Below, piece by piece: positions 2,996-46,536 of a DNA stretch of 46,536 bases (positions within the stretch are counted from its first letter, which is position 1; every line of letters starts with the position of its first letter). The notes under the pieces were generated by a model. That model was given only the letters and a program-made list of their open reading frames with translations. It was not told where the DNA came from and made no database searches. The translations under genes were made by a program, and so were the position numbers. The stretch lies in assembly GCA_003559575.1 (NCBI GenBank), contig PWKZ01000228.1, forward strand, positions 1 through 46,536, given 5' to 3'. The stretch comes from Bradymonadales bacterium. Lineage in GTDB: Bacteria; Myxococcota_A; UBA9042; PWKZ01.

Positions 2996-3339
2996 GCAGG
3001 GGGGGATTAGGGCTCCGCTCATTCGACGCGCTCGGTGCGTGAGTTTGAAACGGGATCTCAGGGGTGGGGAAAAGCTGTTATCGCGGCTGGGGAGAGCCTG
3101 GGTAAAAACTGGCCGGAGAGGCTTTTCGCCGTTTACCTCCCCAATCGCCACCCAGTCAGAGCAACAACTTGATCACGCCTTTCCAAGCAGCCAAGATTTC
3201 GTTTCAACGGTCCTTTTCAGATCCTTCCACAGTTTCCCCAGGCCCTACGAGAACGACGAGAAAAAAAATAGATCTCTTTTTTTAGTGATAGTGCTTGAAG
3301 AATGTTGGGGGCGGATACAAGAATCGGGGGCCTCTCTCC

Positions 3340-3447
3340 TAAATTAGGCGCAGTCCAACGCAGCGCCTACGTCGAGCACTAATTCGGTGCAGGTGACGCC
3401 GCAGATGGGCGTGAATCCGCGCGCGAATACCAGGATGGACCGACGCG
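3340..3447 (+). repeat. R180 repeat copy C1 (partial), in tandem with C2
   Basis: AATTAGGCGCAG...CAGCGCCTACGTCGAGCACTAATTCGGTGCAGGTGACGCCGCAGATGGGCGTGAATCCGCGCGCGAATACCAGGATGGACCGACG, near-identical to 3558-3625. Confidence 0.85.
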
Positions 3448-3454
3448 GTGGAGA

Positions 3455-3632
3455 CCATAATCGTCGGTTCGTTCTGAAGACCGAGCGTGTGGAGTCGCGT
3501 GCATGTGCAAGGAAACAAAGCGAATTAGGCGGAGGCGTAGCAGCGCTTAAGTCGAGCACTAATTCGGTGCAGTTGACGCCGCAGATGTGCGTGAATCCGC
3601 GCGCGAATACCAGGATGGACCGACGATTATGG
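3455..3632 (+). repeat. R180 repeat copy C2 (full length, about 178 bp)
   Basis: Begins CCATAATCGTCGG (3455-3467), ends CCGACGATTATGG (3620-3632), full core in between. Confidence 0.92.
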
Positions 3633-6108: not shown

Positions 6109-6662
6109 GCCTCGATCCAAACAGCGCCATCGAGTATGGCCGGATACCGCTGAAGTATTTTTTGGCGTTGTGGCATGAGGCCGAGGGGAGGCGGTTCCGC
6201 TATCGCCCCATTCGCGTCTGGACGACAGTGATTCTGCTCATGCTCTCGAGCCTCTGGGGCTACTATATTCACACTTTGGGTTTTGGCGCCGGGTTATCAG
6301 TCGGGACCTTTGTGGTTGGCTTGGTGCTGCTTTTCCTGACTCTCCTGGCGACACTGCTCCTGCTGCGCTGGCGACTGTTCGTGAGGCAAAGCGCGGTGCT
6401 CGTGACCGACAAGGCGTTGATTTGGCGCAGCGGCCAGCGATGTTTTCTGGCCCCATGGCGGCTCATCGATCCCAACGGCTTGGGTCTGGCGGAGTTGGGG
6501 TTGGGGGGAGGCTATGAGAGCAAGCTGGTTATCAAAATCGGCGATACGGCCGAGCCCTTGTTTTTGATTCGTGCCTTTACCAAACTCGATGACCAAGAAG
6601 GGTTCTTGGGTGAGCTGCTCTTACGGATCCCACGTGAAAGTTGGGCAACTCCACCACCATAA
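6105..6662 (+). CDS. Small membrane protein of unknown function (PH-like/YdbT-like character)
   Basis: 185 aa with two adjacent hydrophobic segments (TTVILLMLSSLWGYYIHTL / VGTFVVGLVLLFLTLLATLLLL); TTG start overlaps recF stop; stop codon lies within repeat copy D. Confidence 0.65.
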   Translation: MSLDPNSAIEYGRIPLKYFLALWHEAEGRRFRYRPIRVWTTVILLMLSSLWGYYIHTLGFGAGLSVGTFVVGLVLLFLTLLATLLLLRWRLFVRQSAVLVTDKALIWRSGQRCFLAPWRLIDPNGLGLAELGLGGGYESKLVIKIGDTAEPLFLIRAFTKLDDQEGFLGELLLRIPRESWATPPP

Positions 6663-6835
6663 TCGTCGGCCCATCCTGGGATTCGCGCGCGGATTCACGC
6701 ACATCTGCGGCGTCACCTGCACCGAATTAGTGCTCGACGTAGGCTCTGCTACGCCTCCGCCTAAGAACGGCTTGGTTCCTTGCACATGCACGCGCCTCCA
6801 CACGCTCGCTCCTCAGAACGAACCGACGACTATGG
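6657..6835 (-). repeat. R180 repeat copy D (full length, 179 bp)
   Basis: CCATAATCGTCGG (6657-6669) to CCGACGACTATGG (6823-6835), core in inverse orientation relative to copy C2/H. Confidence 0.92.
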
Positions 6836-12309: not shown

Positions 12310-12390
12310 TCTGGCCCCGGCGTTGACGCCGCGTCCTATCTATCATGCCTGACTGGGGTCGCTCACGACAACGATTATCCCCCCCAATTA

Positions 12391-12546
12391 CCGTTTCAAA
12401 CCGAGCACCGAGCGCGTCGAAACGGGGAGAGCTACAAGGAAGCGGGCCGCCTTGGGTGGGAGGGAAACGCAGAACTATCTCGAGCACCAAATCGGTGCAG
12501 CTGATGCCGCAGATGTGCGCGACTCCCAGGGTGGAGCGACGGTCAT
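12391..12546 (+). repeat. R180 repeat copy E (divergent, L3-type end)
   Basis: CCGTTTCAAACCGAGCACCGAGCGCGTCGAAACGG ... GAGCACCAAATCGGTGCAGCTGATGCCGCAGATGTGCGCGACTCCCAGGGTGGAGCGACGG. Confidence 0.7.
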
Positions 12547-12638
12547 AGGTCATGAGTCCTGGTTGCATGGACGAGACTGCAACAGGTACTCTGCCGCTTG
12601 CGCGTTGTGATCGAATCGGCGCGACTGATGGAGGGTCG

Positions 12639-15683: not shown

Positions 15684-15724
15684 CCTCACTCCTCCACCGC
15701 GTCCGTGGATCGAGGGGAGTGAGG
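15684..15724. repeat. R180-family L2 module hairpin, possible terminator-like element between lon and priA
   Basis: CCTCACTCCTCCACCGCGTCCGTGGATCGAGGGGAGTGAGG: outer arms CCTCACTCC/GGAGTGAGG plus inner TCCAC/GTGGA; 8 bp after lon stop. Confidence 0.7.
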
Positions 15725-15773
15725 CGCCGTTGTCCAGATGCCAGGACGAACCGCGGTGTGCTAGGCTCGGGCC

Positions 15774-23693: not shown

Positions 23694-26600
23694 GTGATTC
23701 GCGATTTTAGTTTTTTGGGCCTCTCGCCTTTTTTGATCCCGGATGATCGGTTGACAATCGCGCTGTGCCGGGCGGGGGCCCTGGGTGTGCTGGAGTTGGG
23801 CCGCGACCCCGCCGCGGCGCGCGCGGCGCTCTCGACCGTGGCCCGCCAGGTGCCGGCCGGATTCGGCGTGCGTGTCACCTCGGGGACGGCGGTGGAGCCC
23901 GCGTCCCTCCCCCGCGAGGTCCGCGTCGTGGTGCTGCCGGCGGACGTGCCGGCCGCCCCCTGGGCCGGCCGCGAGCGGTTGGTTCAGGTGACCTCCATCG
24001 AAGAGGCCCGCGCCGCGATCGAGGCCGGCGCCGACGGTCTCATTGCCAAGGGGTCCGAGAGCGCCGGCCGAGTCGGGGAGTGCTCGACCTTCGTGCTGGC
24101 GCAAGCGCTGCTGGCGGCCGACTCGCTGTTGGGTGGGCGGCCGGTCTTTCTCCAAGGCGCCATCGGCCTCCACGCCGCCGCCGCGGCCTTCGCGGGCGGG
24201 GCCAGCGGGGTCGTCCTCGACGACGCGCTCGCGTTGCTGCGGGAGTCCCGGCTGGATCAGGCGGCCAGGAAGCTCATCAGCGGGCTCGACGGCAGCGAGA
24301 CCACCGTCCTCGGTGGCCACCGCGTGTTCCTTCGGCCGGGCTTTCTGGCGGCCGATCTGGCGGCCGATCAGAGTGATCCCACCGCGGCGGAGGTCGAGGC
24401 GCTCATTGGCGGCACCGATCCGAGCACGAATCTCCTGCCCATGGGCCAGGGGATCGGGCTCGCGGCGCGCTATGCCGACCGCTATCGCACCGTGGCCGGA
24501 CTACTGAGCGCGTTGAGCGACAACGTCGCGACCAGCCTCCGCCTGGCGCAGGCCGCAAACCCGTTGGCCCCCCAGAGCCCGCTGGCCGAGGCGCTCGGTT
24601 GCCGCTACCCCATCGTGCAGGGGCCGATGTCGCGCGTCAGTGACTCGCCGGCTTTTGCCCTCGCTGTCGCTCAAGCCGGTGGATTGCCTTTCCTGGCCGT
24701 GGGGCTCAAGAGCGGTCCCGCGCTGTCCGACTTGCTGCGTGAGACGGCGACGCATCTCGCGGGACGTCCTTTTGGAGTGGGGCTGCTCGGCTTCGCGCCG
24801 CCCGCGCTGTGGGAGGAGCAAAGCGCGCTGGTGCTGGCCGCCCGCCCGCGCGCGGCAATCATCGCCGGCGGCCGCCCGTCACAAGCGCGGCTCTTCGAAG
24901 AGCGCGGGATTCAGACCTGGCTGCATGTGCCCTCGCCGGGGCTGCTCGACTTGTATCTTGAGGACGGAGCGCGGCGGTTCATCTTCGAGGGACGTGAGTG
25001 TGGCGGGCATGTGGGCCCGCGTGGCAGCTTCGCTCTGTGGGAGGCGCAGATCGAGCGGCTGATGTGCTTCGAGGCGCCTGAGGAGCTGCATGTTCTGTTC
25101 GCCGGCGGGATCCATGATCGGCGCTCGGCGGCGATGGTGGCCGCCCTGGCGGCACCGCTGGCCGCGCGCGGGGCGCGGCTCGGGGTCTTGCTCGGCACCG
25201 GCTATCTGTTCACCGAGGAGGTGGTGGCCACGGGCGCCCTGCTGCCCGGGTTTCAGCGGGCGGCGCTGGATTGCAGGCGCACGCGGGTACTGCGCTCGGC
25301 GCCCGGTCACGAGAGCCGCTGCGCCGACACTGACTATGTGGCGGCGTTCGAGGCCGAGCATGCCCGCCTGGTGGCCGAAGAGCGCTCGCCGGACGAGATC
25401 TGGGAGGCGCTGGAGCGCTTCAATTTGGGCCGGCTGGCGCTGGCCGCCAAGGGGCTCGACCAGCGGGGAGCTGAAGGGGTGCCTTGCGACGAGCGCACTC
25501 AACGGCGCGAGGGGATGTATATGCTGGGAGAACTCTCGGCGCTCCGCACGGAGGTGGTGACCATCGGTGAGCTTCACGAGGACGTGAGCGAGGGAAGCGC
25601 CCGTCTCTTGGCCGAGAGGGCTCGCTTCAGAACCACCGCGGCAGCGACTTCGGCCGATGAGGCAGCGGCCGGCGCGGCGCCGGCCGATGTGGCCATTGTC
25701 GGGATCGCCTGCGCGTTCCCCGACGCGCCCGATCTGGCTCGCTACTGGGCCAATATTCTCGATGGCGTCGATTGTATTACCGAGGTCCCGGACGAGCGGT
25801 GGAGCAAGGAGATTTACTACGACGGCGACTCTCGCGGCGATGGGCATACCTACTCCAAGTGGGGCGGCTTCTTACCCCAGATCGCCATTGATCCGTTGGC
25901 CTATGGGATCCCGCCGCGCTCTCTGGCAGCCATCGATCCGGTCCAACTGCTGAGTCTCGAGATGGCCCGGCGAGCCCTCGAAGATGCCGGCTACGGCGAC
26001 GGCGCGCTCGGGCGGTGGTTTGATCGAGAGCGGACGGCGGTGATCTTCGGCGCCCAGCCGGGGGCCGATCTGGCAGGCGCCCACGGCTTCCGGGCGCTCT
26101 ACCCGCAGCTCGTGGGCCCGCTGCCGGAGGCGCTCGCGGAGCGTCTGCCGGAGCTCACCGAGGACTCTTTCCCCGGGGTGCTCGGCAACGTCATCTCAGG
26201 CCGCATCGCCAACCGCCTGGATCTCGGGGGGACCAACTACACGGTGGATGCGGCTTGCGCGTCCTCGCTGGCGGCCCTCCAGGTGGCGATTCGGGAGCTA
26301 CTGGCCGGGACGAGCGACATGGTGCTGTGCGGTGGCGCCGACGTGCACAACAGCATCAACGACTATCAGCTCTTCTCGAGCGTTCACGCGCTGTCCCCCA
26401 CCGGCACCCCGCGTACTTTCGATGCCTCGGCCGACGGAACCACCATCAGTGAAGGGGTGGCGGTGTTGGTGCTCAAGCGGTTACGCGACGCCCAGCGGGA
26501 CGGTGATCGGATCTACGCCGTCGTGCGCGGCCTCGGCGCCGCCAGCGACGGCAAGAGCCTGGGGCTCACGGCGCCCCGGCGCGAGGGGCAGTCGCGCGCC

Positions 26601-29600
26601 GTTCAGGCGGCGCTCCGCCAGGCCGGGATCTCGCCCCGCGCGCTGGGCCTCGTTGAGGCGCACGGGACCGGAACGGTGGTGGGCGACAAGACGGAACTCG
26701 AGGCTCTGAGGGAGCAGTTCGAGGCCGCGGGGGCGAGCGCCGGGGGGTGCGTCCTGGGCTCGGTGAAGTCCCAGATCGGTCACACGAAGTGTGCCGCCGG
26801 GCTGGCCGGGGTCATCAAGGCCGCGCTGTCGGTGGAGCGCGGCGTGCGCCCGGTGACTCCGAATGTGGAGCAGCCGAACCCCGCCTGGCGGGGCGAGCGA
26901 AGTCCCTTCGTCTTTATGCCCCAAACCCAGCCCTGGAGCGCTGAAGAGCGCAGCGCCGGGGTGAGCGCGTTCGGGTTCGGCGGGACCAACTTTCATGCCA
27001 TTGTCTCTTCTCCTCCGGCGCCGGCCGACGAGTTGCTCTGCACCCGTGACGAGTGGCCCGCCGAGCTTCTACTCTTTCGCGGGCCGGACCAGGATCATGC
27101 GCGGCGCCGCATGGAGAGGCTCGCCGCTCTGCTCGAGGGGCGGACCACCTGGCGGCTTCGGGATCTTGCGCGCACGACCTCCAGCGGTGGCGAGGGGCCG
27201 GTGCGCGCGGCAGTGTTGGCGCGTGATATTCCCGATTTGCGCGCCAAACTCGAGCGGGCCCGCTCGTTCGAGTCCGACCCGCGCGGCGTGTTTGTCGCCC
27301 CTGAGCGACCCCTCGCGCAATCCGGGCAGGTGGCGTTCCTCTTCCCCGGCCAGGGGAGCCAGCGGCCCGGGATGGCGGCCGATCTGTTCGTGACCTTCCC
27401 GGCGCTGAGACGCCACCTCCAAGCCGGTGCGCGCCATGTCGCTCAAATGTTTCCGCCCAAGACCTTCGGCCCGGAGGGGGAAAAGGCCCAGCAGGAGGCG
27501 CTCACCGACACCCGCGTGGCGCAGACGGCGCTCGGGATGGTGGGCCTCGCGATGGCCGATTTGCTGCTGCGCTTCGGAGTCCGCGCCGACATGGCGGCGG
27601 GGCACAGTTACGGCGAGATCGTGGCCCTGGCGGCGGCGGGGGCGCTCGCGGCCGACGAGTTGCCGGAGCTGAGCGGCGCGCGCGGCGCCGCCATCCTCGA
27701 GACGGCCCTGGCACGAGAGGACGATCCGGGTTGCATGGCGGCGGTCAAGATTTCGCGGGCGCGCCTCGAGGAGATCTTCCCGGCGCTCGCCGGGGGGCAC
27801 GCGGACGGGGTCGTCCTGGCCAACCACAATGCGCCGGAGCAGTGTGTGTTGTCGGGGCCGAGCGCCACTCTCGAGCGGATGCTGAGTTCGCTGGCCGAAG
27901 ATGGCCACCGGGGGCGTCGGATCCCCGTCGCTTGCGCTTTCCATAGCCCGCTCGTGGCCGGCGCCGGGGAGAAGTTTGCCGGCCATCTGGCGCGCGCCAA
28001 AGTGAGTGTGCCGCGCTTCCCGGTTTGGTCCAATACCACGGCCTCTCCCCATGAAGCTCGGCCCGCCGCGATTCGTGCGTTGTTGGCCGAGCAGGTGGAG
28101 CGCCCGGTGCGCTTCGTCGAGCAGATCGAGGCGATGTACCAGGCGGGCGCGCGGGTGTTCGTCGAGGTCGGTCCAGGGAAGGTCTTGAGCGGCCTCGTGG
28201 GGCAAATCTTGGGTGAGCGGCCCCACACCGTCGTCGCCACCGACTCGCCCGGTCAGCATGGGCTCGTGGCGCTTCAGACGGCGTTGGCGGCGCTGGCAGT
28301 CCACGGGGTGGCCGTCGACAGTGAGGCGCTGCACGCGGGCCGAGACTCGCGCAAATATGATCTCGAGTCCGCTCCCTCACTGGCCCTGCCCCAGTCGGCC
28401 TGGCTTGTGGACGGCCACCTCGCGCGGCCCTTGACCGGAGAGGTGCCGAAGGGGGCGTTGCAACCGATGGGCCCGCCGCTCGGGATCGCGCCGGCGACCT
28501 CGGAAGCGCCCGGCGAGGGCCGCGAGGCGGTGGTGATGAACTACCTCGCGATGGTCAAGGAGCTTGTCGCGACTCAACGCGAGGTGATGCTCAGCTATCT
28601 TGGGACGCCGCCGTCAGAGCCGACCCCGGCGCGCGCCGTCGCGCCGGGCGCGCCTGAGGTCACTGCCTCCGAGGAGCAGATCGCGCCGGGGCCGGCCGAG
28701 GGGGAGGCGCCGGCCGAGGAGGAGGCGCCGGCTCTGCTGGACGCGGCCCGGCTTTCGGCCTTGCTGTTGGATCTGATAAGCGAGCGCACCGGCTATCCGC
28801 TCGAGATGCTGGATCTCGATTTGGATCTCGAGGCCGATCTGAGCATCGACTCCATCAAGCGCATCGAGATCCTGGGTGCTCTCGGGCGTCTCATCGGGAT
28901 TGACGAGGAGACCGGCGAGCGCGATCAAGTCTTTGAGGAGCTCGCCAAACAGAAGACGATCCGTGGGATCGTGGCCTGGCTCGATGAGCGCCTCCGGGCG
29001 ACCTCCGACGAGGAGCCCACGGCGGCGCGCGAGGCGGCGAGTGCAAAGGATGGCGCCGCCGTGCCCGGCGCTGATGAGCCCGCTGTCCGCCCACCGGATC
29101 TCCAACGCTTCGTGGTGGGGCTCCGGGGTGCCCCTGTCGGGCGAATGAACGGGACGCTCGAGGGGCGCCAAGTGGCGGTCACGGACGGCAGCCCCGAGTT
29201 GGCTCGCGCGCTCGTCAAAGCGTTTGCCGGACGGGGGCTGAAAGCCGTTGTCGTGACTAACGGTGAGACGAAGGGGTGCCACGCGCTGGTGGATCTGACG
29301 GCCCTCGGCAACGGGGGCGCCGATCCGGTCAAGGGCGTCTTCAAGCAGGTGCGACATGCGATCCAGAGCGGGACCGAGCGGATCGTGGTCGCGTCGGCCC
29401 TTGGGGGGCGCCTCGGCTACGCCGCGGCGAGCGATGAGCGGCTCGGCCACGGTGGTCTTGGAGGACTCGTCAAGACCGTGGCCAAGGAGCGCCCCGAGAT
29501 CGCGCTGCGGGTGGTGGATCTCAATCCGGCCGCCCGCGCCGAGGCCAACGCGGCCTTCCTGGTTGAAGAGCTGTTGGCGGAAGGCCCGGAGCGCGAGGTC

Positions 29601-30518
29601 GGCCGCTTGGGCGACGAGCGGGTCGTCTCTGATCTTCGCGCGCGCCCGCTGGGCCGCGAGATGGTTCAACCACTCGGCTCCGATGCCGTGGTGCTCATCA
29701 CCGGCGGGGCGCGTGGGATTACGGCGCGCGTGGCGGTGGAGTTGGCCAAGCGTTTCGGCTGCCGCCTCGTGCTGGTAGGGCGCTCGCCTGCGCCGCAGGA
29801 GGAGGAGCCCGCCGAGCTGGCCGCGCTGCCCGACGCGGTGGCGTTGCGTCGGCACCTCGCGCAACAGGGCGATCTCGGGGGGCCGCGGGAAATAGACGCC
29901 GTCGTGGCGCGCCTGCTGCGAGAGCGGGAGATCCGCGCGACCCTCGGTGGTATCGCCGCCGCCGGCTCCGAAGCCGAGCTGTGCGCGCTCGACGTGCGCG
30001 ATGAGGAGGCGTTCGGGGCGCTCATCGACGACATCTATGCGCGCTACGGACGGTTGGATGGTGTCATTCATGGCGCCGGAGTTCTCGAGGACCGGCTCAT
30101 CGAGGACAAATCGGAGGCATCTTTCGCGCGAGTCTACGATACGAAGGTCAGGGCCGCCCGCGTGCTGGCCCACAAATTGAGGCCGGGCCTCGACTTCGTG
30201 GTCTTCTTCGCGAGCGTCGCGGGCTTCTTCGGCAATCGAGGGCAGGTGGATTACGCCGCCGCCAACGACGCCTTGGATCGCCTCGCCCACGCCCTTAGCG
30301 GCCGCCTTGCACGTCGCGTGGTGGCCGTCGACTGGGGCCCGTGGGGCGGCACCGGGATGGTTGGCACCGAGTTGGCGCAAGAGTGGGCGCGCCGCGGCGT
30401 CGGCCTCATCGAGACCGACGAGGGCGTGGACGCTTTGTTGGACGAGATAAGCCGCGGCGCGCCGCAAGAATCCCAGGTGATCCTCATGCGCGCCGATCCC
30501 GAGAGTCTTGGAGGATGA
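23694..30518 (+). CDS. Multidomain iterative-type polyketide/PUFA-like synthase: two tandem NPD/PfaD-like TIM-barrel domains - KS - AT - ACP - KR
   Basis: NPD-like YPIVQGPMSRVSDSPAFALAVAQAGGLPFLAVG and GRECGGHVGPR; KS YTVDAACASSLAALQ, EAHGTGTVVGD, GHTKCAAGLAGV; AT LFPGQGSQRPGMA, GHSYGE; ACP DLDLEADLSIDSIKRIEILGAL; KR LITGGARGITARVAVELAKRFG...YAAANDALDRLAHAL. Confidence 0.93.
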   Translation: MIRDFSFLGLSPFLIPDDRLTIALCRAGALGVLELGRDPAAARAALSTVARQVPAGFGVRVTSGTAVEPASLPREVRVVVLPADVPAAPWAGRERLVQVTSIEEARAAIEAGADGLIAKGSESAGRVGECSTFVLAQALLAADSLLGGRPVFLQGAIGLHAAAAAFAGGASGVVLDDALALLRESRLDQAARKLISGLDGSETTVLGGHRVFLRPGFLAADLAADQSDPTAAEVEALIGGTDPSTNLLPMGQGIGLAARYADRYRTVAGLLSALSDNVATSLRLAQAANPLAPQSPLAEALGCRYPIVQGPMSRVSDSPAFALAVAQAGGLPFLAVGLKSGPALSDLLRETATHLAGRPFGVGLLGFAPPALWEEQSALVLAARPRAAIIAGGRPSQARLFEERGIQTWLHVPSPGLLDLYLEDGARRFIFEGRECGGHVGPRGSFALWEAQIERLMCFEAPEELHVLFAGGIHDRRSAAMVAALAAPLAARGARLGVLLGTGYLFTEEVVATGALLPGFQRAALDCRRTRVLRSAPGHESRCADTDYVAAFEAEHARLVAEERSPDEIWEALERFNLGRLALAAKGLDQRGAEGVPCDERTQRREGMYMLGELSALRTEVVTIGELHEDVSEGSARLLAERARFRTTAAATSADEAAAGAAPADVAIVGIACAFPDAPDLARYWANILDGVDCITEVPDERWSKEIYYDGDSRGDGHTYSKWGGFLPQIAIDPLAYGIPPRSLAAIDPVQLLSLEMARRALEDAGYGDGALGRWFDRERTAVIFGAQPGADLAGAHGFRALYPQLVGPLPEALAERLPELTEDSFPGVLGNVISGRIANRLDLGGTNYTVDAACASSLAALQVAIRELLAGTSDMVLCGGADVHNSINDYQLFSSVHALSPTGTPRTFDASADGTTISEGVAVLVLKRLRDAQRDGDRIYAVVRGLGAASDGKSLGLTAPRREGQSRAVQAALRQAGISPRALGLVEAHGTGTVVGDKTELEALREQFEAAGASAGGCVLGSVKSQIGHTKCAAGLAGVIKAALSVERGVRPVTPNVEQPNPAWRGERSPFVFMPQTQPWSAEERSAGVSAFGFGGTNFHAIVSSPPAPADELLCTRDEWPAELLLFRGPDQDHARRRMERLAALLEGRTTWRLRDLARTTSSGGEGPVRAAVLARDIPDLRAKLERARSFESDPRGVFVAPERPLAQSGQVAFLFPGQGSQRPGMAADLFVTFPALRRHLQAGARHVAQMFPPKTFGPEGEKAQQEALTDTRVAQTALGMVGLAMADLLLRFGVRADMAAGHSYGEIVALAAAGALAADELPELSGARGAAILETALAREDDPGCMAAVKISRARLEEIFPALAGGHADGVVLANHNAPEQCVLSGPSATLERMLSSLAEDGHRGRRIPVACAFHSPLVAGAGEKFAGHLARAKVSVPRFPVWSNTTASPHEARPAAIRALLAEQVERPVRFVEQIEAMYQAGARVFVEVGPGKVLSGLVGQILGERPHTVVATDSPGQHGLVALQTALAALAVHGVAVDSEALHAGRDSRKYDLESAPSLALPQSAWLVDGHLARPLTGEVPKGALQPMGPPLGIAPATSEAPGEGREAVVMNYLAMVKELVATQREVMLSYLGTPPSEPTPARAVAPGAPEVTASEEQIAPGPAEGEAPAEEEAPALLDAARLSALLLDLISERTGYPLEMLDLDLDLEADLSIDSIKRIEILGALGRLIGIDEETGERDQVFEELAKQKTIRGIVAWLDERLRATSDEEPTAAREAASAKDGAAVPGADEPAVRPPDLQRFVVGLRGAPVGRMNGTLEGRQVAVTDGSPELARALVKAFAGRGLKAVVVTNGETKGCHALVDLTALGNGGADPVKGVFKQVRHAIQSGTERIVVASALGGRLGYAAASDERLGHGGLGGLVKTVAKERPEIALRVVDLNPAARAEANAAFLVEELLAEGPEREVGRLGDERVVSDLRARPLGREMVQPLGSDAVVLITGGARGITARVAVELAKRFGCRLVLVGRSPAPQEEEPAELAALPDAVALRRHLAQQGDLGGPREIDAVVARLLREREIRATLGGIAAAGSEAELCALDVRDEEAFGALIDDIYARYGRLDGVIHGAGVLEDRLIEDKSEASFARVYDTKVRAARVLAHKLRPGLDFVVFFASVAGFFGNRGQVDYAAANDALDRLAHALSGRLARRVVAVDWGPWGGTGMVGTELAQEWARRGVGLIETDEGVDALLDEISRGAPQESQVILMRADPESLGG

Positions 30519-33500
30519 GTAAGTCGGGCGACAACGGCGTGGCCATCGTGGGAATGGCGGCGCTCTTTCCCGGGGCGCCGGATCTCGCCACCTACTGGCG
30601 CAACATCACAGCCGGGGTGGACTCGATCAGTGAGATCCCGGAGCACCGCTGGGAGAGCGAGTTCTTCGACCCGCAGAGCACGGCGGTCGACCGCTTCCCG
30701 GTGCGGCGCGGCGGGGTCGTCCCGGAGCCGCTGTTCGACGCGCTCGCCCACGGCATCATGCCGGTGGCGGCCAAGGGAGCCGAGCCCGATCAGCTCGTGA
30801 TGCTCGACCTCGGAGTCCGCGCGTTGGCTGACGCAGGCTACGGAGAGGGGCTGCGAGAGTTCGATCGCGGGGCGACGGCGGTGATGCTCGGGCGGGGCAA
30901 CTACATCGGCGCCGGGATGACTCGGCTCGAACAGCATGTGCGCACGAGCGCCCAACTCGTGACCTGCCTGCGGACCCTGGTGCCCGGGATTACCGAGAAA
31001 ACGTTGGCGGCCGTCAAGGCGGAGTTTCAAAGTAAACTCGGCGCTTACGGTGGAGACACGGCGATCGGGCTGGTGCCCAATCTGACCGCCTCGCGTCTCG
31101 CCAACCGGCTCAATCTCCGCGGGCCGGCCTACACCCTGGATGCCGCTTGCGCCAGCGCGCTCGTGGCCACCGATCTGGCACTCCGCGAGCTTCTCATGGG
31201 GCGCGCGGCGGTGGCGCTCGCGGGCGGGGTCCACCTCACTCACGACGTGGCGTTCTGGAGCGTCTTCGCGCAGCTTCAAGCACTCTCGCACAGCGGCTGC
31301 ATTCGGCCGCTCGACCGCCTGGCCGATGGGTTGTTGCCGGGCGAGGGCGGCGGAATGCTGGTGCTCAAGCGCCTCGCCGACGCCGAGCGGGACGGGGATC
31401 GGATCTACGCCGTGCTGCGCGGAGCGGGGGTGGCGAGCGACGGTCGCGGGGCCGGCCTGATGGTCCCCCGGATCGAAGGCCAGCTCCTGGCGCTCGAGCG
31501 GGCCTGGTCCGAGGCGCGCCACGCTCCCGAGGAGGTGGGCCTCATCGAGGCCCACGGCACCGCCACGCCGGTGGGGGACGCGGCCGAACTCGAGACTCTG
31601 GCGCGGTTTTTTGGCAAAGCGGAATCCGATGGCCCTCCGCGCGCCGTGATCGGTTCGGTGAAGTCGATGATCGGCCACGCCATGCCCGCCGCCGGCGCTG
31701 CGTCGCTCATCAAGACGGCGCTCGCCGTCTACCACGGCGTGTTGCCGCCGACGCTACATTGTGATGAGCCGCACCCGGCGATGGCGGGGACGCGCTTCCG
31801 GCCGCTCGCGGCGAGCGAGCCCTGGGAGGAGCGCCGGCGGTTGGCCGGGGTCAACGCCTTCGGCTTCGGCGGGATCAACGCCCACGTGGTGTTGGAGTCG
31901 CACGGAGCGCGCGCAGTCCGCCGGCGACACCGCCCGGGGGGCCTCGCGCCGGAAGAGATCTTGGTGCTGGCGGCTGATTCACCGGGCGCGCTTCGTGAGG
32001 CGCTCGAGTCCGGGCGGACGGAGGTCGGTGAGGGTGCGTGCCGCCTGGCGCTCGTCGATCCGACGCCCGCGCGTCGGACCAAGGCGCTCGAGGTAGTGCG
32101 CGCCGGCAAGCCGCGCCGCGGGCGGGACGGGCTGTGGTTCAACACCGAGGGGCTTTTGACCGCGGGCGGCCAGGTGGCGTTTCTGTTTCCGGGGATCGAG
32201 GCGGCCTTCGAGGATCGGATCTCGGATATTGCGCGGCACTTCAACCGCCCGTCGCCCCCGACCCCGCCGGGCACCGTCGCCGGGACCAAGGCGCTCGAAT
32301 ACCAGGGGGCGATGACGGTCTTTGCCGGGCGGCTGCTCTTCGATGTTCTGGGGGAAGTGGGGATTAAGCCTTCGCTGCTCGCCGGCCACAGTATCGGGGA
32401 GTGGACCGGCATGATCGCCGCCGGGATCATCCCCGCGGACGTTTTCGAGGAGTTCTGGGCCACCCTGACCCCCGGCTCGCTCGAGGTGCCGGGGGTCGTC
32501 TTCGCCGCGGTCGGCGCCTCGGCCGAGGCGGTGCGGCCGCTCGTGACCGACCTCGACGGGGTGGTCGTCACCCACGACAACTGCCCGCACCAGGTGATCC
32601 TCTGCGGCCCGGAGGCCCAGCTCGACACCGCCCTCGTTCGGTTGCGCGACGCGCGCTTCCTGGGGCAGAAGCTGCCCTTTCGCTCAGGCTTCCACTCACC
32701 GGTCTTTGCCGACTACCTCGCCCCGCACCGGGAGCGCTTCGCGCGTCTTGCGCTTGGGGCTTCAAAGATCCCCCTGTGGTCGGCCACCACCTGTCGCCCG
32801 TATCCGAGTGATCCCAAGGCTATCGAGCGGTTGGCGCTCGACCATCTCGTCCGCCCGGTGCGTTTCCGCGAGTTGATTTTGGCGCTCTACGAGCATGGGG
32901 TGCGGGCTTTCGTTCAGCTCGGCTTCGGGAGCCTTGTGGGGTTCGTGGACGACACGCTGCGGGGGCGGGAGCACGTGGCGCTCTCCGCCGGCGCGCCGCA
33001 GCGCAGCGGTCTCGAGCAGCTTCGTCGAGTGGCGGCGGCGCTCTTCGTCGAGGGGGCGCCGGTGGACTGGACCCGGCTGTTTCCCTCGTCGCGAGGCGCG
33101 GGCGCCCGCATCAGGCTAGAGCTCGGGGTGCCGCTCGTGCGGCTCGAGCGGTCCCTCGAGGGAGCGCGCATTCCTCATGACGTGCGCGCTCCTGAGCGCG
33201 GCGCCGACAGCCCGGTGCAGCGCGGCTTCGAGGCCGTGATGCAGGAGCTCGTCGACTCGCAGGAGGCGGTGCGCCGCGCGTGGACCGCCGGCCCTGCGCC
33301 CCCCTCGGCGCCGCGCGAGAAGGTTGTCCGCCGGCGGCTCTCGGTCAAGACGGATCCGCATCTTCTCGATCACTGCCTGATCCCGCAGCGGCCCGGGTGG
33401 CCGAGTGTCGCCGATCGCAACCCGGTGGTCCCGATGACCATGATGATTCGGATGATGATGGACGCCGCCGTGGCGCTCGTCCCGGATCGCGTCCCGATTG

Positions 33501-34786
33501 CCGTTGAAGATCTGCTGGCACACACCTGGCTGGCCGTCGAGCCGCCGGTGGAGGTGGCGATCCGCACGACTCTGGTGGCGCCCGACCGTGTGCGGGTGGT
33601 GATCGAGGGCTCTGCTGAGGCGGTGGTGGTCCTGGCCGAGCGCTACCCCCAACCGCCGGCGGCGCCGGTGGTCGGCCTCACCAACCCGCGCCCCTCCGAG
33701 GTGAGCGGTGCGGCGCTGTATGAGGATCGCTGGATGTTCCACGGCCCGGCCTATCGTTCAGTGACCGAGATCCTGGAGTTCGGGGAAGATGGGATCCGCG
33801 GTCGGATCCGCCCCTTGCCGGCCGAGGGGGCGCTGCTGGACGGCGCGGGTCAGCTCTTTGGCTACTGGGTGATGCAGAGCGTCGAGCGAGATCGCCTGGC
33901 GATGCCTATCAAGTTGGGCGCTCTGCGCCTCTTCGGCCCCGAGCCGCGGGAGGGGGAGGAGCTCGTGTGTACGGCCTGGTGCCGGCACCTGGGCCGCCGC
34001 GAGGTGCGCGCCGAGATGATGATTACGGATCGCGACGGGCACCCGTGGGCCCGGCTCGAAGGGTGGACCGACTGGCGGTTCGAGACCGACGAGCGACTGT
34101 GGCGCATCATGCGTCGCGCCGAGCGGCACCTGTTTGCTGAAATGACCCCGGAGGGGCTCGCCGTCGTCTTCGAGCCGGAGCGCAGCGCGGCGAGCCGCGA
34201 TTACCTGGCGCGCCGGTTCTTGAATGAAGAGGAGCGGCGCACCTGGGCCGAGACGCTCGCGCCGCGGCGCCGCACGCCGTGGCTCTACGGACGGATCGCC
34301 GCCAAGGACGCCGTTCGTCATTGGCTCATGGCTCGCGCGCGGGGATTTCTCTTTCCGGCCGAAATCGCGGTCGAGAATGACGAGACGGGCCGTCCGCGTG
34401 TCGCCGGCCCTCAGCTGCCGGACCTGCGGCTCTCCATCGCCCACAAGGAGACCATCGCGGTGGCTTTTGTGGGAGAGGGGCGCGAGGTGGGGGTCGATGT
34501 GGAGCGCTACGAGCCCCGCTCCGCGGAGTTTGGGGAGTTGATCTGTGCCCCCGAGGAGCTGCGGCGGCTGCCTACACAAGAGAGAGAGGCGTGGCTGACG
34601 AGGGTCTTTTGTGCCAAGGAGGTTATCGGCAAGAGACTTGGGACGGGGCTCGCGGCCGCACCCAAGCGCCTCCCGGTGACCGCCGTCGAGGCGTCGCCGG
34701 GCGCGATGAGAGTCCGGATCAAGGACGAGTGGGTGACCTTGCGCGATTACGGCGAGCATGTGATCGGGTGGTCGGATGGAACCTGA
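30515..34786 (+). CDS. Second PKS subunit: KS - AT - hotdog dehydratase-like - 4'-phosphopantetheinyl transferase
   Basis: KS YTLDAACASALVATDLAL, EAHGTATPVGD, GHAMPAAGAASLIK; AT LFPGIEAAF, AGHSIGEWTGM; DH-like DPHLLDHCLIPQRPGWPSVADRNPVVPMTMMIRMMMDAA; PPTase LRLSIAHKETIAVAFVGEGREVGVDVERYEPR...FCAKEVIGKRLGTGL. ATG overlaps upstream stop (ATGA). Confidence 0.93.
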   Translation: MSKSGDNGVAIVGMAALFPGAPDLATYWRNITAGVDSISEIPEHRWESEFFDPQSTAVDRFPVRRGGVVPEPLFDALAHGIMPVAAKGAEPDQLVMLDLGVRALADAGYGEGLREFDRGATAVMLGRGNYIGAGMTRLEQHVRTSAQLVTCLRTLVPGITEKTLAAVKAEFQSKLGAYGGDTAIGLVPNLTASRLANRLNLRGPAYTLDAACASALVATDLALRELLMGRAAVALAGGVHLTHDVAFWSVFAQLQALSHSGCIRPLDRLADGLLPGEGGGMLVLKRLADAERDGDRIYAVLRGAGVASDGRGAGLMVPRIEGQLLALERAWSEARHAPEEVGLIEAHGTATPVGDAAELETLARFFGKAESDGPPRAVIGSVKSMIGHAMPAAGAASLIKTALAVYHGVLPPTLHCDEPHPAMAGTRFRPLAASEPWEERRRLAGVNAFGFGGINAHVVLESHGARAVRRRHRPGGLAPEEILVLAADSPGALREALESGRTEVGEGACRLALVDPTPARRTKALEVVRAGKPRRGRDGLWFNTEGLLTAGGQVAFLFPGIEAAFEDRISDIARHFNRPSPPTPPGTVAGTKALEYQGAMTVFAGRLLFDVLGEVGIKPSLLAGHSIGEWTGMIAAGIIPADVFEEFWATLTPGSLEVPGVVFAAVGASAEAVRPLVTDLDGVVVTHDNCPHQVILCGPEAQLDTALVRLRDARFLGQKLPFRSGFHSPVFADYLAPHRERFARLALGASKIPLWSATTCRPYPSDPKAIERLALDHLVRPVRFRELILALYEHGVRAFVQLGFGSLVGFVDDTLRGREHVALSAGAPQRSGLEQLRRVAAALFVEGAPVDWTRLFPSSRGAGARIRLELGVPLVRLERSLEGARIPHDVRAPERGADSPVQRGFEAVMQELVDSQEAVRRAWTAGPAPPSAPREKVVRRRLSVKTDPHLLDHCLIPQRPGWPSVADRNPVVPMTMMIRMMMDAAVALVPDRVPIAVEDLLAHTWLAVEPPVEVAIRTTLVAPDRVRVVIEGSAEAVVVLAERYPQPPAAPVVGLTNPRPSEVSGAALYEDRWMFHGPAYRSVTEILEFGEDGIRGRIRPLPAEGALLDGAGQLFGYWVMQSVERDRLAMPIKLGALRLFGPEPREGEELVCTAWCRHLGRREVRAEMMITDRDGHPWARLEGWTDWRFETDERLWRIMRRAERHLFAEMTPEGLAVVFEPERSAASRDYLARRFLNEEERRTWAETLAPRRRTPWLYGRIAAKDAVRHWLMARARGFLFPAEIAVENDETGRPRVAGPQLPDLRLSIAHKETIAVAFVGEGREVGVDVERYEPRSAEFGELICAPEELRRLPTQEREAWLTRVFCAKEVIGKRLGTGLAAAPKRLPVTAVEASPGAMRVRIKDEWVTLRDYGEHVIGWSDGT

Positions 34787-34800
34787 GGATGAGAGAAGCA

Positions 34801-35078
34801 TGAGCGCGACACAAGAGGCGGTCTTGGCGACGGTGGCTCGGATTTTGGTGGAGGTGATTGGTGAGGAGTGGGCTGATGAGACCCCCATCGAACTGGACAC
34901 CTCGTTTGCCGACGATCTGGAGCTTGAGAGTATTGAGTTCGTGGCGTTGGCCGAGCGGTTACAAGAGCACTACGGCGCGCAGGTGGACTTTGTGGGGTGG
35001 CTCTCGGACAAGGAGCTGGACGAGATAATCGCCCTCGAGGTCGGTGACCTGGTGGATTTCATCGTGGCAAAGCTCTGA
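34801..35078 (+). CDS. Stand-alone acyl carrier protein
   Basis: FADDLELESIEFVALAERLQEHYGAQVDF: canonical D-L-x-S phosphopantetheine context; start could also be ATG 34776 overlapping the PKS stop. Confidence 0.9.
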
Positions 35079-35100: not shown

Positions 35101-35250
35101 TCAGGGCACACCGTCGGAGGGGTTCTTCACTCGCACCCCACGGATGAGTTGCTCGTCTTGGAGGTCTTCTGTGACGAGGTACGCGCAAGCGGCAGAGTCG
35201 GCCGCGGCAATCACAAGCGCCTCCCACAACGCCAGCCGTGAGAGCACGGA
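35101..35250 (-). pseudogene. C-terminal remnant of a PIN-domain (VapC-like) protein
   Basis: Translation SVLSRLALWEALVIAAADSAACAYLVTEDLQDEQLIRGVRVKNPSDGVP resembles the conserved PIN C-terminus (S-x-WDALIVAAA...LLSEDLQ-x-G-x-x-I-x-G-x-x-I-x-NPF); 5' portion missing where repeat copy G begins at 35251. Confidence 0.75.
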
Positions 35251-35428
35251 CCATAATCGTCGGCCCATCCAGGGATTCGCGGACGGATTCACGTACATTT
35301 GCGGCGTCACCTTCACCAAATCGATGCTCGACGTAGCGTTGCTACGCCTCCGCTCGATTTGGCTTGTTTCCTTGCACTTGCGCCCGCCTCACTCCCCTCG
35401 GTCCACGGACGCGGTGGAGGATTGAGGC
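35251..35428 (-). repeat. R180 repeat copy G (full length, L2-type left module, stem type 2)
   Basis: CCATAATCGTCGG at 35251-35263; stem arms CCAAATCGA (35316-35324) and TCGATTTGG (35354-35362); other end CCTCACTCCCCTCGGTCCACGGACGCGGTGGAGGATTGAGG. Confidence 0.9.
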
Positions 35429-35507: not shown

Positions 35508-36320
35508 GTGATGGGTTTGGCAAGCTTGCGGCGTTTTTTGTACTTCCCGGAGCGGCTCCCGGTGGACGCTCCGCTGCCGCCCCACGCACGTGGGGCGCGC
35601 GAGGTGTGGTTGGAGGCGGCGGACGGCGTGCGCATCCACGGGCTCTACTGGGCGCCGCCCCCAGGCCGCCCGGTGGTGCTCTTTTTCCACGGCAACGCGG
35701 GGGAGGTCTACCAGTGGGCCCTGGTGCGCCACGATCTCGCCGCGCTCGACTCCGGGCTGCTGATAATCGACTATCACGGCTATGGCAAGAGCGCCGGCAA
35801 GCCGAGTGAGGCGGCGCTTCATGCCGACGGAGAGGCGGCTTTGCGGTGGCTCGGCGACGAGGCCGGAGTGGCCGCAGAGCGGGTCGTGCTCCACGGCAAA
35901 TCGCTCGGCGGTGGCGTCGCCGGTCGGTTGGCGGCCACGCACGACGTGCTGGGGCTGATTTTGGAGTCCACGTTCACGTCGATCCCGGGGGTGGCGGAGA
36001 ACCTTTTTGGGCGCTTCTTGCCGATTTTGGGGACCCGCTCGTGGGAGAAGATGATGCCCGACCGCTTCGCCACGGTCGAGCATCTGGCGGCGGTGCGCTG
36101 CCCGGTCTTGGTGGTCCACGGCGAGCGCGACTCATTGATCCCCGTGGCCCACGCGCACTCGCTGTTTGAGGCCGCGCGCGAGCCGAAGGAGCTTTATCTG
36201 GTGCCCGCCGGCGATCACAACGACGTGGCCTGGGTGGCGGGGGAGAGCTACGGGCGGCGGCTTCGCGAGTGGCTCGCGCGCTGTCTTGCGCGGGCCGACC
36301 GGCGGGTCGCCGAGGAGTGA
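35508..36320 (+). CDS. Alpha/beta hydrolase (serine aminopeptidase/S33-like)
   Basis: VVLFFHGNAGEVYQWALVRHDL, LIIDYHGYGKSAGKPSE, VVLHGKSLGGGVAGRLAA, VLVVHGERDSLIPVAHAHSLFEAA. Confidence 0.88.
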   Translation: MMGLASLRRFLYFPERLPVDAPLPPHARGAREVWLEAADGVRIHGLYWAPPPGRPVVLFFHGNAGEVYQWALVRHDLAALDSGLLIIDYHGYGKSAGKPSEAALHADGEAALRWLGDEAGVAAERVVLHGKSLGGGVAGRLAATHDVLGLILESTFTSIPGVAENLFGRFLPILGTRSWEKMMPDRFATVEHLAAVRCPVLVVHGERDSLIPVAHAHSLFEAAREPKELYLVPAGDHNDVAWVAGESYGRRLREWLARCLARADRRVAEE

Positions 36321-45375: not shown

Positions 45376-45555
45376 CCATAATCGTCGGTTCGTTCTGAGG
45401 AGCCCCGCTAAGTGGAGTCGCGTGCATGTGCAAGGAAACAAGCCGAATTAGGCGGAGGCGTAGCAGCGCTTAAGTCGAGCACTAATTCGGTGCAGGTGAC
45501 GCCGCAGATGTGCGCGGATCCGCGCGCGAATCCCAGGATGGGCCGACGATTATGG
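45376..45555 (+). repeat. R180 repeat copy H (full length, 180 bp; reference copy)
   Basis: CCATAATCGTCGG (45376-45388) ... stem CCGAATTAG (45443-45451) / CTAATTCGG (45482-45490) ... CCGACGATTATGG (45543-45555). Confidence 0.93.
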
Positions 45556-46364: not shown

Positions 46365-46536
46365 GCACTAATTGGGTGCAGGTGACGTCACAGATGTGTG
46401 TAAATCCGTCCGCGAACCTCAATCCTCCACCGCGTCCGTGGACCGAGGGGAGTGAGGCGGGTGCAAGTGCAAGGAAACAAGCCAAATCGAGCGGAGGCAA
46501 ACGCAGCGCCTACGTCGAGCATCGATTTGGTGAAGG
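46365..46536 (+). repeat. R180 repeat copies I1 (right part) fused to I2 (L2-type, stem type 2), truncated by window edge
   Basis: CACTAATTGGGTGCAGGTGACGTCACAGATGTGTGTAAATCCGTCCGCGAA joined directly to CCTCAATCCTCCACCGCGTCCGTGGACCGAGGGGAGTGAGG...CCAAATCGAGCGG...TCGATTTGG. Confidence 0.88.

Follow-up and report, generated by a model that had tools for sequence, protein, structure and literature searches.

A MITE-like intergenic repeat of a Bradymonadales bacterium, probably selected as a folded RNA and related to ERIC

The repeat described here is probably a MITE-like, non-autonomous mobile element of about 177 bp, devoid of genes and present in roughly 500 copies, which is under selection as a folded RNA and forms a superfamily with ERIC. 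Its copies were analyzed in the window, i.e., the whole 46,536-nucleotide stretch of Bradymonadales DNA considered here, which corresponds to one entire contig, and in a 1.61 Mb sample of the genome (3.95 Mb, 306 contigs). A first look at the genome gave 573 candidates for the repeat, while profile matches were 220 in the 1.61 Mb sampled, from which the genome-wide figure of roughly 500 is derived; many contigs terminate within copies of the element.

The preliminary description concerned an internal stem of copy G, located at 35250–35427 with its RNA strand on the minus strand. The arms of this 9-bp stem read CCAAATCGA (35316–35324) and TCGATTTGG (35354–35362) on the plus strand, with the coordinates and letters originally given, and correspond on the minus strand to helices 7-8 of the 54-pair model; the apical hairpin GTAGC-GTT-GCTAC (35334–35346, minus strand), also found as claimed, is helix 9 of the full-copy model and helix 5 of the core model. 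Type-1 arms, CCGAATTAG/CTAATTCGG, are indeed present in copies A, C2 and H, the left arm of C2 reading GCGAATTAG as reported, and each of the four stem positions that distinguish type 1 from type 2 is matched in the opposite arm (4/4). Independent variation of the two arms, which had been named as the observation that would speak against a paired stem, was looked for in the 124 sampled copies of the genome in which both arms could be read, and was not seen, the main types matching almost always: 36 copies are type 1/1, 41 type 2/2, four 3b/3b and two 3a/3a, with one 1/2 cross and zero 2/1 crosses. The matched arm changes are beyond chance. Copy D does carry the arm CTAAGAACGG, which had been regarded as damaged; this is a recurrent right-arm variant, found in 27/124 copies, and not an isolated lesion. 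Together with a type-1 arm, CTAAGAACGG breaks the middle of the stem, so that of its 9 pairs 3+4 remain, on either side of an internal loop.

The covarying stem is real, but the structure to which it belongs extends over all of the ~177-bp element, and the stem forms just its inner portion. Similarly, copy G is a type-2 example in its inner arms but not as a whole, being a mosaic with a T1-type left end (CCATAATCG) and a T2-type right end (GATTGAGG), the subfamilies being defined below, so that its outer helices pair poorly; indeed they are mispaired, the predicted fold of copy G (-68.2 kcal/mol, vs. -105.4 kcal/mol for an intact T1 copy) is poor outside the inner stem, and no target duplication is present. 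Copy G adjoins a polyketide or fatty-acid synthase-like cluster, which comprises two large synthase genes at 23694–34786, with ketoacyl synthase, acyltransferase, ketoreductase, NMO-like and phosphopantetheinyl transferase domains, followed by an acyl carrier protein (34776–35078) and an alpha/beta hydrolase (35508–36320).

Besides copy G, the window contains full T1 elements at 3455–3632 (copy C2, plus strand), at 6657–6835 (copy D, minus strand) and at 45376–45555 (copy H, plus strand), together with two copies cut by the contig ends: the T1 copy A at 1–131 on the minus strand, with arms at 20–28 and 58–66, and the T2 copy I2 at 46417–46536 on the plus strand, which is abutted by an element fragment at 46365–46416 (plus strand). 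The other copies, all on the plus strand, are a deleted mosaic with T3-type and T2-type ends (2870–2994), a partial T1 copy (3335–3445), a degenerate T3-like copy (12383–12551) and a solitary T2 end, which is a short hairpin remnant (15684–15726). Copy A carries, at its right end, a tandem duplication of a 30-bp segment of the T1 end (105–164).

Most full copies in the genome measure 175–183 bp, and the element is bounded by terminal inverted repeats of 13–15 bp with CCNNAAT-type ends; the end sequences include CCATAATCG, CCTCAATCC and CCCTAAT. Three subfamilies can be distinguished by their ends, namely T1 (CCATAATCGTCGG), T2 (CCTCAATCCTCCACC) and T3 (CCCTAATTCCCCA), and their inner stems differ in step. 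According to our own, crude gene calls, 76 copies are intergenic vs. 8 lying within predicted genes, with 86 copies at contig ends left unscored. Terminal inverted repeats, absence of genes, high copy number, intergenic location and target-site duplication, i.e., the features by which MITEs are recognized, were all found. In one locus (L050, 10412–10560) a unit of ~55 bp, in which a T2 and a T1 end are joined, is repeated three times in tandem.

The element is mobile, and the length of its target duplication depends on the subfamily. Exact flanking direct repeats were found in 7/32 T1 copies (5–7 bp), in 8/19 T2 copies (seven of 4 bp and one of 5 bp) and in 7/10 T3 copies (six of 5 bp and one of 6 bp), as compared with about one or fewer per class in the control with shuffled flanks. 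None of the 15 mosaics, which have the ends of two subfamilies and include copy G, shows a flanking repeat of at least 3 bp, as is expected of recombinants. Duplications of 5–6 bp also occur in the relatives G031 (8/20 copies), G038 (5/12) and G037 (2/6), and in other genera of the class they are mostly of 5 bp and far above shuffles. The finding of several duplication lengths with one core indicates that the core cannot simply be what a single transposase acts upon.

A search for duplication-flanked terminal pairs within 6 kb, covering 1.61 of the 3.95 Mb, detected no autonomous element with these ends, since all the pairs were of 36–63 bp or of 176–185 bp; the 36–63 bp versions with duplications can equally be independently mobile minis or inserted copies that have undergone a deletion between short direct repeats, and they are given no weight as evidence. 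As to the transposase content of the genome, DDE_Tnp_1 is found at two places only, one Y1 match is present and rve gave no match; the inspected transposase genes are not surrounded by terminal repeat pairs, and none of the multi-copy proteins of the sample is transposase-like. A DDE_Tnp_1 remnant (locus L236, contig G000:C66) carries half of a T3 element inside its reading frame.

On one of the two strands (minus for copy G), here called the RNA strand, the whole element is predicted to fold into one rod whose internal loops are constant; the rods of T1–T3 have a common architecture and common internal loops, with different helix sequences. The consensus folds on this strand reach -107.3, -106.0 and -108.4 kcal/mol for T1, T2 and T3, respectively, vs. 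-65.3, -82.3 and -87.5 kcal/mol on the opposite strand, and this gap arises because the G.U pairs, which are 6–11 per consensus, turn into A.C mismatches on the opposite strand. The RNA strand folds better in 59/59 intact copies from this genome and in 40/40 copies from four other genomes, and a T1 copy folded as RNA has a z of -10.7. The conserved loops are AAGGCGGCRAG opposite GMAGCCAACGC, plus GGA/GA. At two loci (L183, 1501–1686, and L167, 1501–1678) the apical loop shows short tandem expansions. The 4227 Rfam models gave no match in the window and none up to E=10 on copy H, and a tRNA search found none.

Compensatory changes preserve the rod between subfamilies, between genera and between families. 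In an alignment of 39 full-length copies, RNAalifold identified 49 pairs, 23 of which have compensatory double changes; including the apical helix, 25/54 pairs are changed on both sides. The paired cells of this alignment are 95.8%, vs. 83.1% in shuffles (0/500 reach the observed value) and 32–42% in slid controls, while the count of further pair types is no higher than in shuffles. In 17 cores from 11 genomes, 92.0% of the cells are paired, 25/36 pairs have double changes and the covariation score is 0.500 vs. 0.200, with 0/500 shuffles reaching the observed values on any of five measures; the shuffles ignore relatedness, and the weight is carried by the slid controls and by the spread over families. 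The proposal of the preliminary description that selection or a mechanism acts on a folded RNA or single-stranded DNA is supported by this covariation, which exceeds the slid and shuffled controls in both the 39 full-length copies and the 17 cores. Single departures from Watson–Crick consensus pairs in this genome are 69 G.U vs. 34 A.C (binomial p 0.0007, on copies that are non-independent); the same ratio is 26:6 in G031 and 6:10 in G038, indicating that the G.U excess is not uniform.

Blast with the element DNA against 35 relatives of the class gave one weak match, while a covariance model (R1) identified elements in 16/52 genomes of the class, many of them full-length and of equal length. 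A covariance model of the core (R2) matched 67/378 genomes of the phylum at E<=1e-5, and nearly all the matches among those listed are full-model. The core of a relative, searched against plasmid and phage collections, gave none. One family (f4; L171, L172, L175, L176, L185) has a ~113-nt core with different flanks, and two loci with weak model matches and odd layouts (L189 and L178), in which parts of the loop motif occur more than once, may be related repeats.

ERIC repeats were described in 1990–1991 and are widely used in bacterial typing; the ERIC consensus, to which that of the core bears a resemblance, was matched in 5403/5426 E. coli genomes. The relationship was examined in both directions, with R2 built without any enterobacterial sequence and a further model, R3, built from eleven ERIC copies only, in which 15/39 pairs have double changes. 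With default filters R2 found one ERIC copy; with filters off, the eleven ERIC copies ranked first, at full length and on the homologous strand, the best score being that of Pantoea (31.6 bits, E 1.6e-6) and the low end being weak (E 0.06–0.3). Conversely, R3 searched against 58 loci of the relatives (164,837 bases) gave seven matches at E<=1, all of them known elements on the right strand, some of which repeat one place, so that about four are independent. The model E-values are rough, and the link with ERIC consists of scores of 20–32 bits on few independent loci. When ERIC copies were folded, 7/7 were more stable on the homologous strand; the core loops and the fold are matched in both directions and the better fold is on the homologous strand, as would be expected of an ERIC-like superfamily. 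Common descent is the simplest reading of these sequence matches, with transfer between phyla as another conceivable route. Convergence of the two repeats on a good hairpin, with no common descent, would agree with the modest scores and with the differences in outer helices, ends and length; it is nevertheless unlikely, since 11-nt loop strands are common to the two and occupy the same place in the same fold, the GGA/GA loop is present in both, and the specific matches are reciprocal and on the homologous strand.

A different question is whether the folded molecule that matters is single-stranded DNA, for instance a lagging-strand hairpin recognized in transposition, like attC or IS200-type elements. 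DNA also tolerates G.T pairs, and with DNA parameters the same strand still beats its shuffles (z -6.2); however, the asymmetry between strands is then small (-5.5 for the other strand), and the G.U-rich outer helix is not predicted, local hairpins taking its place. Moreover, neither attC nor IS200 chemistry would be expected to leave target duplications. The predicted strand asymmetry, in which G.U is tolerated and A.C avoided, together with a full rod obtained with RNA parameters only, favours RNA over single-stranded DNA, and we regard the latter as improbable.

The element might also be a cis-acting sequence beneficial to the host, i.e., an mRNA stabilizer, an RNase site or a terminator, selected at each insertion site, as suggested by the orientation-dependent effect on transcripts reported for Yersinia ERIC (PMC2229807, PMC10969869). 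With the gene calls mentioned above, the RNA strand has no preferred orientation between adjacent genes that run in the same direction (20 vs. 21) and the arrangement of flanking genes resembles the intergenic background, while decayed, mosaic and fragment copies are numerous; these findings leave selection at each site with little probability. Least probable of all is an ordinary DNA MITE with no folded-RNA role, whose palindrome is matched by quasipalindrome repair, the arm-to-arm templated correction that palindromes undergo: matched arm changes are frequent within one genome (73 cells with double changes in G031) and short versions with target duplications exist, yet such repair should erase the G.U pairs, which are kept at 6–11 per consensus on the same strand and several of them at columns shared across subfamilies, and the internal loops keep identical unpaired bases across the families and ERIC.

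Under the preferred reading of a mobile element selected as a folded RNA, the element would be transcribed from its better-folding strand, as the fold predictions suggest, and the foldable copies would be those that amplify, so that selection would act on the active copies and not on each insertion, while mosaics and fragments would decay. A transposase provided in trans would act on the terminal repeats and make a staggered cut, with probably different transposases for T1, T2 and T3; the conserved loops may bind a partner, either a ribonuclease or another protein, and the element would thereby spread or be tolerated. More tentatively, and with somewhat more doubt than confidence, ERIC may represent one branch of an ancient, multi-phylum mobile class defined by a conserved folded RNA, whose core persisted while terminal repeats and integration enzymes were exchanged (duplications of 4, 5 and 5–7 bp) and would itself be needed for spreading, e.g., as a protein-binding site. 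A relative in a different phylum, in which the core loops are kept and the ends and duplications have changed, would make the conserved RNA part separable from the part devoted to integration; it also provides predictions on the residues for partner recognition, on the strand transcribed and on the transposases acting. Search models are now available for an RNA-structured mobile class that had no Rfam match in the tests made.

Among the known systems, REP/REPIN sequences with RAYT are also high-copy, palindromic and intergenic, but their units are of 20–40 bp vs. 177 bp; the length of the unit and the single Y1 match in the genome, which has no element ends around it, led to the rejection of this assignment. 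Correia/NEMIS elements are likewise short and mobile and form hairpins, and RNase III can cleave their transcripts (PMC10969869); they differ, by description and not by sequence, in their 24-bp terminal repeats and TA ends (PMC2229807). YPAL/RU-2 of Yersinia, a hairpin repeat of ~168 bp, resembles the present element in its target duplications and predicted common structure (PMC2229807, PMC2267715), a likeness again of description and not of sequence, and differs in its internal inverted repeats and duplications of 3–26 bp (PMC2229807).

ERIC (IRU, RU-1) has been reported from Enterobacteriaceae and Vibrionaceae only, Photorhabdus luminescens having 711 copies (PMC10969869), and our search of the literature, which was not exhaustive, retrieved no paper describing relatives in bacteria other than gammaproteobacteria. 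It has been described as a single long stem-loop, which RNAz supports (PMC2267715); the orientation of the hairpin affects transcript stability, and no transposase has been demonstrated, its movement being an open question (PMC2229807). In Yersinia the effect on transcript levels is orientation-dependent (PMC2229807, PMC10969869). ERIC measures 127 bp, with TA termini and a 7-bp terminal repeat, while the present element measures 173–186 bp, with 13–15 bp CCNNAAT-type ends; these differences in length and ends, together with the different outer helices, rule out that it is ERIC proper, as does the host, its carriers being outside Enterobacteriaceae and Vibrionaceae. Both are small, gene-less, intergenic repeats that reach hundreds of copies in some genomes and form a long hairpin; they have in common the loop strands AAGGCGGC[A/G]AG and G[A/C]AGCCAACGC, the GGA/GA apical loop and the strand that folds better.
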